Virus record (IMG/VR): IMGVR_UViG_3300031162_000917
Coordinates: 1 to 35,179 of that record
Length of the DNA stretch: 35,179 nucleotides
Strand: one strand, 5' to 3'
From: a virus
Position numbers and translations under genes: made by a program. Position 1 is the first letter of the stretch; every line of letters begins with the position of its first letter. Positions 28,737-35,179 of this stretch are shown here, in pieces. The notes under the pieces were generated by a model. The model made no database searches. It was given only the letters and a program-made list of their open reading frames with translations, and was not told where the DNA came from.

Positions 28737-28751
28737 GTCAATTTAATTTAG

Positions 28752-28825
28752 TACGCCCGACAGGATTCGAACCTGTGACCGTTTGCTTAGAAGGCAAATG
28801 CTCTATCCAGCTGAGCTACGGGCGC
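28752..28825 (-). tRNA. tRNA-Arg (anticodon UCU)
   Basis: Full cloverleaf on the minus strand: acceptor GCGCCCG with CGGGCGU (G1-U72 wobble), U8, A9, D arm GCTC...GAGC, anticodon arm TTTGC-CTTCTAA-GCAAA giving UCU, five-base variable loop, T arm ACAGG-TTCGAAT-CCTGT, discriminator A and no encoded CCA. It reads AGA, a codon used frequently by the phage genes here. Confidence 0.95.
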
Positions 28826-29261: not shown

Positions 29262-29278
29262 GGTTTAAATTTTATTTG

Positions 29279-29352
29279 TTGGGGCGGTGGGACTTGAACC
29301 CACGACTTCCTGTGTATAAGACAGACGCTCTAACCAACTGAACTACGCCCCA
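29279..29352 (-). tRNA. tRNA-Ile (anticodon UAU)
   Basis: Full cloverleaf on the minus strand: acceptor TGGGGCG with CGCCCCA (U1-A72), U8, A9, D arm GTTC...GAGC, anticodon arm TCTGT-CTTATAC-ACAGG giving UAU, T arm GTGGG-TTCAAGT-CCCAC, discriminator A and no CCA encoded. It reads AUA directly, without the lysidine-modified CAU tRNA that most bacteria use. Confidence 0.93.
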
Positions 29353-33483: not shown

Positions 33484-33806
33484 CTATTCTCGCGCCATAA
33501 AGAAAAAGGACTCTTCTGTGTACACACAAAAACCAACTTTGCATGCTTATTCTTACTTCTGAATCGCTTCGATGCCGTAAAGGTATAAAGGATTTTTTTA
33601 AAAGTCAACCCTAAAGCAGAACTTTACACAAAAGACTCTAAGTGGCTCTAAATAAAAGGGTTAATTACCAGCTAATCATGTGTTGTTGATAAGGTGTTAG
33701 ATCAGTTTTGAGTGGTTTTTCTTGATACTGAAGTCAATGATCCAAAAAATGCACGAGAAATGTAGACCGTGGGGATTATATAGACTTCTGCACGACTGCG
33801 CATGCG
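33484..33806. other. Non-coding, A/T-rich spacer between the divergent gene blocks
   Basis: No convincing gene on either strand. It contains a T7 run at 33592-33598, GTGTACAC near 33529-33536 and the palindrome CGCATGCG at its right end, but no exact TAnnTTTG box facing either gene block. The promoters of the leftward lysozyme-like gene and of the rightward hairpin-rich unit should be here or in the following leader. Confidence 0.5.
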
Positions 33807-33855
33807 AACCGAAACGGTTTGGCCAACCCCACCCCCCTAATATCTTCGATATTAG
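33807..33855. repeat. Leader hairpins 1 and 2
   Basis: 33807-33819 is AACCG-AAA-CGGTT. 33837-33855 is an 8-bp perfect stem CTAATATC-TTC-GATATTAG. They open the hairpin array that runs on through the plus-strand genes. Confidence 0.85.
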
Positions 33856-33875
33856 CGCAAATACTTTTAGCTTTT

Positions 33876-33903
33876 TACCTACTGACTTTCAGTCAGTTAG
33901 GTA
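33876..33903. repeat. Leader hairpin 3
   Basis: A 12-bp stem with one bulged T: TACCT plus ACTGACT, loop TTC, AGTCAGT plus AGGTA. No T-run follows, so it is not an ordinary terminator on the plus strand. Confidence 0.85.
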
Positions 33904-33997
33904 GGGTTAGCTCTACCACTGCATGAGACCTGCGAAGCTTGCGTCGTCTTCGTTGCGGTGGGACAATCCCTCCCCAATCCATCTTTCGACTCTGACC

Positions 33998-34016
33998 TTT
34001 CCCCTTTCAGGGGAAA
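33998..34016. repeat. Leader hairpin 4
   Basis: TTTCCCCT-TTC-AGGGGAAA, an 8-bp perfect stem with the same TTC triloop as hairpins 2, 3 and 6. Confidence 0.85.
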
Positions 34017-34049
34017 CATTCAGTGCCGATTTGGTCGGTCTTCGCGATG

Positions 34050-34091
34050 GCTAACATACGGAGATAACGAGTTATCTCTCAGTGTGTTAGC
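34050..34091. repeat. Leader hairpin 5, nested
   Basis: The outer stem GCTAACATAC pairs with GTGTGTTAGC (one T-G pair) and encloses an inner stem GAGATAAC/GTTATCTC. It is one of the longest folded elements in the leader. Confidence 0.85.
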
Positions 34092-34103
34092 GGCCTTCAA
34101 CTC

Positions 34104-34131
34104 CACTACTACTATCTTCGATAGTGTAGTG
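34104..34131. repeat. Leader hairpin 6
   Basis: CACTAC, a bulged T, ACTATC, loop TTC, GATAGT, GTAGTG: 6 + 6 bp around one bulge. Confidence 0.85.
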
Positions 34132-34147
34132 AATACACCGAACCCTA

Positions 34148-34201
34148 GAGATATGTATTAGAATGAATGAATTCTATGAATTCATTCTAATACATTATCT
34201 C
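34148..34201 (+). promoter_or_regulatory. 21-bp stem-loop ending directly at a start codon
   Basis: 34148-34168 pairs with 34180-34201 over 21 bp with a single bulged base and an 11-nt loop (GAATTCTATGA). The 3' arm ends ...ATTATCTC and the ATG of the 182-aa gene follows with no spacing. Folded mRNA would present or hide the start codon, so translational control or RNase III-type processing is likely. Confidence 0.8.
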
Positions 34202-34750
34202 ATGTCAAACTTCAATTTCTCCGATTGCCGAAAGGCAACCAACCAAGCCATCTTCCGTCCCACTGCGGCCCGCAAAGCAGAAGCTGTAAAGCTTCTGACT
34301 GAAGCCTTGGACTTCATCAATAACCTCGAAGAGGTTAAAGAGAAGCCGAAGGCTTCGAAGACGAAGAAGCGTCGTCGTAAGACGACGAAGAGAACACCTT
34401 CACAGAAGGTGGCAGACCGCCAAGAGATGGCCAACAAGACCAACGAAGTTGGTCCAATCAAGCCTTCGAAGAAGGCTAAGAAAGCCTCCGTCAAGGAGGC
34501 TGCAAAGTCAGCCAAAGCTGTCTCGGTGGCCACTGGAGCTGCCGCTAAAGCGGCAAAGAAAGCAGAACTTCGTTCTGCTACTGCTGAAAGGGCTGAGGTT
34601 GCCGCTCAACCTTCGGTTGATGAGTCAAGAGTAGCTTCCTTGGAAGCTAAGATTGAGGCTCTCACCGCAGTGCTCGCCCTGCACATGGAGTCTTCGACTC
34701 TCCCCGTTGCTAACGAAGTTAGCATTAACGAACTCCCTTTCGAACTCTAA
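34202..34750 (+). CDS. Histone-H1-like Lys/Ala-rich protein in the hairpin-rich unit
   Basis: 182 aa from the ATG at 34202-34204, directly after the long stem-loop; an ATG at 34163 lies inside that stem and is rejected. It begins MSNFNFSDCRKATNQAIFRP and has a helical segment to about residue 45. A very basic low-complexity region (KPKASKTKKRRRKTTKRTPS, KPSKKAKKASVKEAAKSAKA, to about 130) resembles histone H1 tails. A C-terminal helix (VASLEAKIEALTAVLALHME) could be a coiled coil. DNA or RNA binding is likely. About 16 hairpins lie inside this gene, in different codon phases, so codon choice serves the nucleic acid structure. No family is recognised. Confidence 0.65.
   Translation: MSNFNFSDCRKATNQAIFRPTAARKAEAVKLLTEALDFINNLEEVKEKPKASKTKKRRRKTTKRTPSQKVADRQEMANKTNEVGPIKPSKKAKKASVKEAAKSAKAVSVATGAAAKAAKKAELRSATAERAEVAAQPSVDESRVASLEAKIEALTAVLALHMESSTLPVANEVSINELPFEL
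34225..34724. repeat. Hairpin array inside the 182-aa gene
   Basis: Perfect short inverted repeats at 34225-34238 (loop GAAA), 34278-34297 (8 bp, GTAA), 34321-34337 (GAA), 34342-34356 (GAA), 34370-34387 (GTAA), 34395-34411 (ACA), 34438-34454 (GAA), 34461-34477 (GAA), 34483-34501 (GTCAA), 34540-34555 (TAAA), 34561-34579 (8 bp, TTC), 34606-34620 (TTC), 34632-34649 (CTTG), 34687-34701 (TTC) and 34708-34724 (GAA). Stems are 5-8 bp. Weaker ones lie at 34300-34316 and 34509-34520. Confidence 0.9.
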
Positions 34751-34766
34751 TTCATTGAAAATGAAT
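34750..34766 (+). promoter_or_regulatory. Start-codon hairpin cassette, junction 1
   Basis: ATTCATT-GAA-AATGAAT, a 7-bp stem. It begins on the last base of the TAA of the 182-aa gene and contains the ATG (34761) of the next gene. The 10-nt spacer TTCATTGAAA matches TTCATCGAAG at the next junction. Confidence 0.85.
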
Positions 34767-34919
34767 ATCTTTCAGAATCACATCAATGCCAACTACCATA
34801 GAATGGTAGCTGAAGTCAAAGATTTGGCTCGTTTCGAAGGAAACGACAAAGCGGTTGCGACGCTCGACGCAATCATCGACTGCCTCAATGCTCAAAGAGC
34901 ATTGCTTGTTAAACCTTAA
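34761..34919 (+). CDS. Small protein of the hairpin-rich unit (52 aa)
   Basis: 52 aa: it begins MNIFQNHINANYHRMVAEVK and ends DCLNAQRALLVKP, mostly helical, near-neutral. It starts 10 nt after the previous stop, inside a hairpin, and ends 10 nt before the next start. Internal hairpins: 34793-34809 (7 bp, loop AGA), 34829-34846 (7 bp, GAAG), 34886-34904 (8 bp, AAA), and a weaker one at 34855-34872. Not recognised; the shared junctions argue that it is a real gene. Confidence 0.6.
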   Translation: MNIFQNHINANYHRMVAEVKDLARFEGNDKAVATLDAIIDCLNAQRALLVKP

Positions 34920-34920
34920 T

Positions 34921-34933
34921 TCATCGAAGATGA
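34921..34933 (+). promoter_or_regulatory. Start-codon hairpin cassette, junction 2
   Basis: TCATC-GAA-GATGA, a 5-bp stem enclosing the same C(GAA)G loop. It lies between TAA (34917-34919) and the ATG (34930) of the 25-aa frame. Same spacer length and near-identical sequence as junction 1. Confidence 0.8.
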
Positions 34934-35007
34934 CTGCAATCCTTTCCTTCACATTGGCGGGCGCTGTCTTGTACTTTGAGTACAAGCTGTTGCTCCGCCT
35001 CCTCTGA
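34930..35007 (+). CDS. Possible 25-aa membrane microprotein
   Basis: ATG at 34930, TGA at 35005-35007. It begins MTAILSFTLAGAVLYFEYKL and ends LLRLL: one hydrophobic helix of about 16 residues then Lys/Arg, as in tiny membrane peptides. The start is placed exactly as in the previous gene (stop, 10-nt hairpin spacer, ATG), which is the main support. It contains the 8-bp hairpin 34968-34986 (CTTGTACT-TTG-AGTACAAG). Confidence 0.5.
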   Translation: MTAILSFTLAGAVLYFEYKLLLRLL

Positions 35008-35017
35008 ACCTCTTAGA

Positions 35018-35072
35018 GTATCTTGATATATACACTCTCTTCATTTATGAAGAGTGTATATATCTTAGATAC
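35018..35072. repeat. Long intergenic hairpin
   Basis: GTATCT (35018-35023) pairs with AGATAC (35067-35072). After a small internal loop GATATATACACTC (35025-35037) pairs with GAGTGTATATATC (35052-35064), then, after a 2-nt bulge, TTCAT with ATGAA. About 24 bp in total. No T-run follows. Like 34148-34201 it fills the gap upstream of a gene. Confidence 0.85.
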
Positions 35073-35110
35073 CTCTTGAATCAACATTTTCAAACTTCAA
35101 TTCAACCATC

Positions 35111-35179
35111 ATGCAGACATTTGCAGATATCCGCCGTCAGCTTATTGCTGACATCCTCGACTCTCACCTCTCCTTCGAC
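35111..35179 (+). CDS. Start of the next plus-strand gene (partial)
   Basis: The ATG at 35111 opens MQTFADIRRQLIADILDSHL and the frame remains open to the window end (23 codons). It carries a hairpin at 35136-35152 (GTCAGC-TTATT-GCTGAC), so the array continues. Nothing more can be said about its function. Confidence 0.5.
   Translation, partial: MQTFADIRRQLIADILDSHLSFD

Follow-up and report, generated by a model that had tools for sequence, protein, structure and literature searches.

The DNA analyzed here, hereafter the window, is a viral fragment of 35,179 nt (positions 1 to 35,179 of the IMG/VR record IMGVR_UViG_3300031162_000917). Its late genes lie on the minus strand, and a short plus-strand early stretch runs to the right end. 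Judged by terminase similarity, the window virus is a tailed phage and a kin of marine flavophages: the terminase showed 49% identity to the uncultured podovirus MW202828, 41% to Flavobacterium elemo phages and 35-36% to Cellulophaga phages, and it distantly resembles that of crAss-like phages. Two tRNA genes are located near the terminase gene on the minus strand (28751-28825 and 29278-29352; Arg (tct), Ile (tat)). The late block of this phage group ends with a giant protein of 2457-3694 aa (e.g. L046:16617-L047:4506), in which LPD38 was the only domain found when one representative was scanned against Pfam.

The features of the early stretch are listed in Table 1; gene borders and the promoter assignment are computational. 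An array of short perfect hairpins extends through the leader, three small genes and the start of a fourth, in agreement with the anatomy described in the original prediction.

Table 1 Features of the early region of the window.
Feature	Position	Strand	Description
Promoter-like motif	33767..33782	+	Conserved, anchors the array; core GGGGATTATA at 33771-33780; promoter function inferred
Early-operon leader	33790..34201	+	Taken as non-coding; hairpins at 33837, 33881, 33998, 34061 and 34111, long one at 34153
Hairpin array	33807..35152	.	About 30 perfect stems of 5-10 bp (mostly 6-8), loops of 2-5 nt; through leader, genes and gene borders
Longest hairpin	34153..34195	+	16-bp perfect arms, 11 nt apart, just 5' of gene 1
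Gene 1	34202..34750	+	182 aa; about 15 internal hairpins
Gene 1/gene 2 junction hairpin	34750..34766	+	ATTCATT-GAA-AATGAAT; 3' arm holds the gene 2 start codon
Gene 2	34761..34919	+	52 aa, with hairpins; function not identified
Gene 3	34930..35007	+	25-aa ORF; start codon within the 3' arm of TCATC-GAA-GATGA
14-bp perfect hairpin	35025..35064	+	5' of gene 4; 12-nt loop with internal pairing
Gene 4, start	35111..35179	+	Truncated by the window end; hairpin GTCAGC-TTATT-GCTGAC

Several of these hairpins were also found in related viruses. The longest one is retained with an altered sequence and a bulged G, the inner part of the 14-bp hairpin (CTCTTCA-TTTA-TGAAGAG) recurs, and the pentaloop of the gene 4 hairpin varies. 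At two borders of the window (34750-34766 and 34921-34933), a start-codon hairpin directly follows the preceding stop codon. The recurrent hairpin TTCATYNNNRATGA, whose 3' arm holds early-gene start codons, gave 70 motif hits in 57 loci.

Abundance of perfect hairpins

With a stem of at least 6 bp and a loop of 3-8 nt, 29 perfect stem-loops were detected at 33780-35179, compared with 2.05 on average, and never more than 6, in 200 dinucleotide shuffles. About 30 perfect inverted repeats within 1.35 kb had been predicted originally; the number was reproduced, and the observation proved even stronger than claimed. The remaining 33.8 kb of the window contained 65 perfect stem-loops versus 33-42 in shuffles. 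Codon-preserving shuffles had been set beforehand as a test that could refute the prediction. The array passed it: gene 1 yielded 22 stem-loop hits against 1.40 ± 1.31 in synonymous-codon shuffles (maximum 6, n = 200), and gene 2 yielded 5 against 0.48. Measured against codon-preserving shuffles, the hairpin counts of the TerL, portal and MCP-like genes were at chance, as expected from the statement that the late genes contain nothing comparable. A spacing rule of 21-28 or 42-55 nt had also been suggested, which was not robust. Helical phasing of the hairpin centers was rejected: a period near 11 nt appeared in gene 1 only and was absent from the leader and the downstream part, and we discounted it because the gene 1 hairpins are homologous and not independent.

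Conservation and position of the array

Relatives of gene 1 were identified in 65 viral contigs, while searches of isolate phages and bacterial genomes yielded none. The gene 1 protein consists of a helical N-terminal part, a basic KKRRRKTTKR linker and a helical C-terminal part, and belongs to no known family as far as Pfam, PDB, phage isolates and bacterial genomes were searched. Nearly all of the 65 contigs (about 60) carry a dense hairpin patch at the same place, with varying strength. These relatives are all metagenomic. Related sequences do not give independent counts, although, where stated, every distinct sequence entered the count only once. The array-bearing viruses are a large, uncultured, marine family that infects bacteria, with no host identified. 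An assembly artefact was ruled out for the array, because dozens of independent contigs share these stems, with compensations; in one relative (L072), the very long inverted repeat that spans the array is probably a chimeric or snap-back assembly. Five contigs that are full-length or nearly so contain the array once per genome; for two of them (G004 and G006), terminal repeats are inferred because the ends match.

The position of the array is defined by a conserved motif. Its left edge lies just past GGTGGGGATTATATATA and variants, a promoter-like motif that was found in nearly all array loci and occurs there as a single copy in the examined genomes. From this motif we infer an early promoter. 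In most loci the hairpins start 22-72 nt downstream of it, with the density upstream remaining at baseline. The mean hairpin density across relatives was 0.3 per 250 bp upstream, jumped about 500 bp before gene 1, peaked at 5.6 in gene 1 and returned to baseline about 1.75 kb later. The profile therefore has a sharp left edge and a slow downstream decay over about 2 kb; the array overruns the end of the window, and relatives carry it to about 1.75 kb past the start of gene 1. Three relatives (L017, L018 and L020) keep the motif and fragments of the leader, lack both gene 1 and the array, and have only 2-3 hairpins in 1.2 kb. In the leader (about 33822-33885), C-rich and CT-rich linkers between hairpins (ACCCCACCCCC and CTTTTAGCTTTTTACC) are conserved, also in array-free relatives.

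Gene 1 is basic, opens the operon and accompanies the array, so that its product might read the shape of the hairpins, which would then be binding sites for this or another phage protein. We consider such sites very unlikely. The arrays of four relatives (L103, L109, L122 and L124) are dense (18-20 hairpins), although their gene 1 is short and without the KRRRK part, and the hairpins have no loop or stem sequence in common. In genomes of the L103 type, gene 1 is duplicated (tandem paralogues at L103 4001-4800), and the copies share hairpins at the same codons, one of them with a compensated pair.

Structural type of the hairpins

The type of hairpin was investigated in 57-58 pooled loci, counting every distinct sequence once. 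Perfect 7-bp stems were strongly enriched (390 distinct versus 16.5 expected), while 7-bp stems with one interior G.T (37 versus 42 expected) or one interior A.C (56 versus 58.5 expected) showed no excess. Since both mismatched classes were at chance, the arms are either exact or absent, and wobble is not accepted. The same scan at 6 bp of E. coli rRNA, with one operon as the control, gave 9 perfect, 24 G.T and 14 A.C stems. Loops of 2, 3, 4 or 5 nt were enriched in the pooled loci, and those of at least 6 nt were not in excess. The closing pair of triloops was C-G or T-A (5' to 3') in 286 of 315 array cases; the ratio of Y-R to R-Y closing pairs was 286:29 in arrays (leader 107:6, gene 1 100:5, downstream 79:18) and 109:112 in the background. 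GNA/TNC loops accounted for 44-61% of triloops in the array regions and 10% elsewhere. For the leader against the background, Fisher tests gave 1e-18 for the closing pair and 4e-12 for GNA/TNC. The unit of the array is a short perfect inverted repeat with a Y-R closing pair; read on one strand or the other, its loop is often a GNA triloop.

Loops of the c(GNA)g and Y-R types are exceptionally stable in DNA mini-hairpins, and our argument from the loops leans partly on this general knowledge. The promoter hairpin of phage N4 has a c(GNA)g loop with a sheared G:A pair (PMC4496689). In the pooled loci, each loop type was roughly as frequent as its reverse complement. The predicted fold gain over shuffles was similar on both strands and greater with DNA than with RNA parameters (z of -12.8/-12.1 and -10.4/-9.1, respectively). 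As a discriminator between DNA and RNA, ViennaRNA loop energies correlated weakly for the DNA set (r -0.14 to -0.17) and about 0 for the RNA set; these sets omit the GNA bonus and so did not reproduce the special stability of such loops in DNA. When Rfam was searched with the window, only two tRNAs reached the gathering score, and the array matched no described RNA family. Together, the exact arms, the short loops, the triloop types and the likeness of the two strands point to hairpins that obey the rules of DNA mini-hairpins on either strand, and not to ordinary sense mRNA structure. The original prediction had left the choice among several candidates; because of the lack of wobble tolerance, the DNA mini-hairpin loops and the strand symmetry, a DNA-level structure is favored, and a heavily structured mRNA and promoters are less favored.

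A structured early mRNA, the hairpins of which would shield the transcript from RNases, regulate the start of translation or obstruct Rho, nevertheless remains a live alternative, although we rate it as improbable. The array is co-extensive with the presumed transcript, and its transcript-like start and downstream fade would also fit such an mRNA; GTAA/CTTG loops are also known as RNA tetraloops, and the compensatory changes across relatives described below are those of a functional structured RNA. Start codons placed in hairpin arms right after stop codons (TTCATYNNNRATGA) could mean translational control, for example by coupling, and for those units an RNA role may remain alive. For the array as a whole, this account meets the difficulty that G.U is not tolerated, though the same scan finds it often in rRNA hairpins, that folding energy does not favor the mRNA strand, that loops are matched by their reverse complements at similar rates, and that loops of 6-8 nt are not in excess.

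Evolution of stems and loops

The original prediction would have been refuted by homologues in which the stems are not kept by compensatory changes. Among 106 pairs of related arrays, the arms had undergone one to three pair changes and remained fully complementary in 97 distinct cases, whereas only 15 stems had a single interior break, of which 6 were G.T or A.C. A codon alignment shows the same stems with other base pairs and, at some positions, with inverted loops, such as GCTAAC-GAA-GTTAGC versus GCTAAC-TTC-GTTAGC. Stems are kept while their sequence, their loops and even the genes that contain them change. Combined with the codon-preserving shuffles, these compensations support the claim of selection on DNA or RNA structure and not on protein.

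Exact inversions were found in 10 of 42 triloops that had changed at two or more positions with intact arms (3.4 expected, p 0.0016). The compensated pair changes and the loop inversions are both marks of template switching (PMC8604942, PMC8794818). The array could then be a functionless by-product of mutation, in which heavy early transcription, through R-loops or fork conflicts, creates a hot spot of intrastrand template switching that makes and perfects repeats and inverts loops. In line with such a process, stems are perfect and lack intermediates, two or three pairs of a stem may have changed, and the array starts sharply after the motif and decays downstream. There are precedents in yeast, where template switching homogenizes arms and inverts spacers in genes (PMC8604942) and quasi-palindrome mutations require high transcription and RNA:DNA hybrids (PMC3820800).

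The rates of change did not meet the neutral expectation for template-switch products. In the leader, the rate was 0.060 in stems versus 0.205 in loops, and at four-fold sites it was 0.088 in stems versus 0.183 in linkers; stems evolve 2-3 times slower than loops, which turn over fast. The 3-fold difference in the leader is unexpected under neutral concerted change. Because of this constraint on stems, the late genes without hairpin excess and the array-free relatives that keep the same motif, an account by mutation alone is weakened; we regard it as doubtful, but it is not excluded and remains a live alternative. It is likely, though not proven, that selection acts in addition to a local mutational process. 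The picture that emerges is one in which pairing is under selection and exact repair is supplied by template switching.

Proposed role and comparison with known systems

Here, we propose that the array is a selected, cis-acting set of DNA mini-hairpins that is tied to the early promoter, forms in underwound or single-stranded DNA and is partly corrected by the hairpin acting as a template. We assign this reading a probability of roughly 45%; the exact role is inferred and no experiments were performed. The units would fold as DNA hairpins or cruciforms once the segment is underwound or single-stranded, possibly triggered by the negative supercoiling that early transcription leaves behind it, by an R-loop or by replication start. 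Jointly, the hairpins are inferred to form a structural zone that stays open and absorbs torsion at the early promoter. The complementarity of the arms may be maintained partly by template switching, in which one folded arm templates the other, and partly by selection against broken stems.

The most likely role, also inferred, would be to help launch the early phase, either in the control of early transcription or in replication start. In N4, physiological supercoiling is enough to extrude DNA hairpins with 7-bp stems, 3-nt loops and a sheared G:A (PMC4496689). Individual N4 hairpins of the size seen in the array are extruded in vivo, and a promoter with such a hairpin inserted is silent except under gyrase inhibition (PMC4496689), which makes an effect on early transcription plausible. 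An aid to replication start is the other main possibility that we infer; no signs of an origin in the form of a DnaA-box-like cluster or a GC-skew switch were detected at the array.

In form, the array comes closest to the N4 early promoter. Both are in the early region of a dsDNA phage, and both have short stems (5-7 bp in N4, 6-8 bp in the array) and 3-nt loops, which dominate in the array with 44-61% GNA/TNC and have the sheared G:A in the N4 hairpins that form at physiological supercoiling (PMC4496689). It is therefore conceivable that some or all of the hairpins are promoters recognized by a virion-injected RNA polymerase, as the N4 hairpin AAGAAGC-TCC-GCTTCTT shares the 7-bp stem, the 3-nt loop and GNA on one strand (PMC4496689), and a giant late protein is comparably placed. 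The first 3 kb of N4 itself (L126 1-3000), which the virion polymerase transcribes, is mildly hairpin-rich, with 14 perfect short hairpins versus 3.8 ± 1.9 in shuffles, and lies above most of the N4 genome. We nonetheless give this explanation very little weight. N4 has three promoters with conserved bases, whereas the array has dozens of units in both orientations that run through coding regions, with unrelated stems, varying loops and none of the conserved stem and loop bases that the N4 polymerase contacts; in addition, there is a distinct promoter-like motif upstream. Neither N4 vRNAP nor the tested part of crAss001 gp47 resembled the giant protein, which has LPD38 only; a virion RNA polymerase in it thus found no support, although a very distant one is not excluded. 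Membership in the N4 class thus fails on the conserved bases and on a detectable virion polymerase.

Other systems resemble the array in part. Mitochondria of Nematomorpha also have perfect inverted repeats inside functional protein genes (PMC6649704), but theirs are up to 284 bp and scattered over the mitochondrial genes, while those of the array are about 17 bp, anchored to a motif and found in about 60 relatives. Template-switch (quasi-palindrome) mutation likewise produces arm homogenization, spacer inversion and multi-base compensatory change (PMC8604942, PMC8794818); it is known as scattered single events, in contrast to a fixed dense field with conserved positions. Structured viral RNAs and mRNA leaders share excess folding through coding sequence, and differ from the array in that the latter has no G.U tolerance, is strand symmetric and has minimal loops. 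In the stretches examined of isolates with related TerL and of the reference phages T7, N4 and crAss001, there were at most 8 hairpins per kb, compared with 22 in the array. Direct sequence search found no array sequence in isolate phages, and the literature covered, subscription journals excluded, describes no comparable element. No known phage element accounts for an array of hairpins that follow DNA rules. More tentatively than the reading above, we suggest that the array is a new kind of phage element, in which tens of sequence-unrelated DNA mini-hairpins, selected in both coding and non-coding DNA, extrude together downstream of the early promoter, forming an unwinding zone driven by torsion that serves the early phase of infection.

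If the proposal is true, these would be the first known protein genes written around a dense field of DNA hairpins and maintained as such across a virus family. The approximately 60 divergent arrays and the array-free relatives with the same motif are natural material on how cruciforms form and act in living cells, and the array tests how far template switching, as opposed to independent mutations, explains compensatory evolution. Even as a mutational by-product, it would still be a natural record of template switching linked to transcription, and an unusually strong one.

A further observation concerns the early region of G004, one of the genomes with terminal repeats, in which L043:6533-6994 weakly matches phage endonuclease I. 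This class of nuclease cuts cruciforms, and the weak match occurs in a phage whose early DNA is rich in potential cruciforms.
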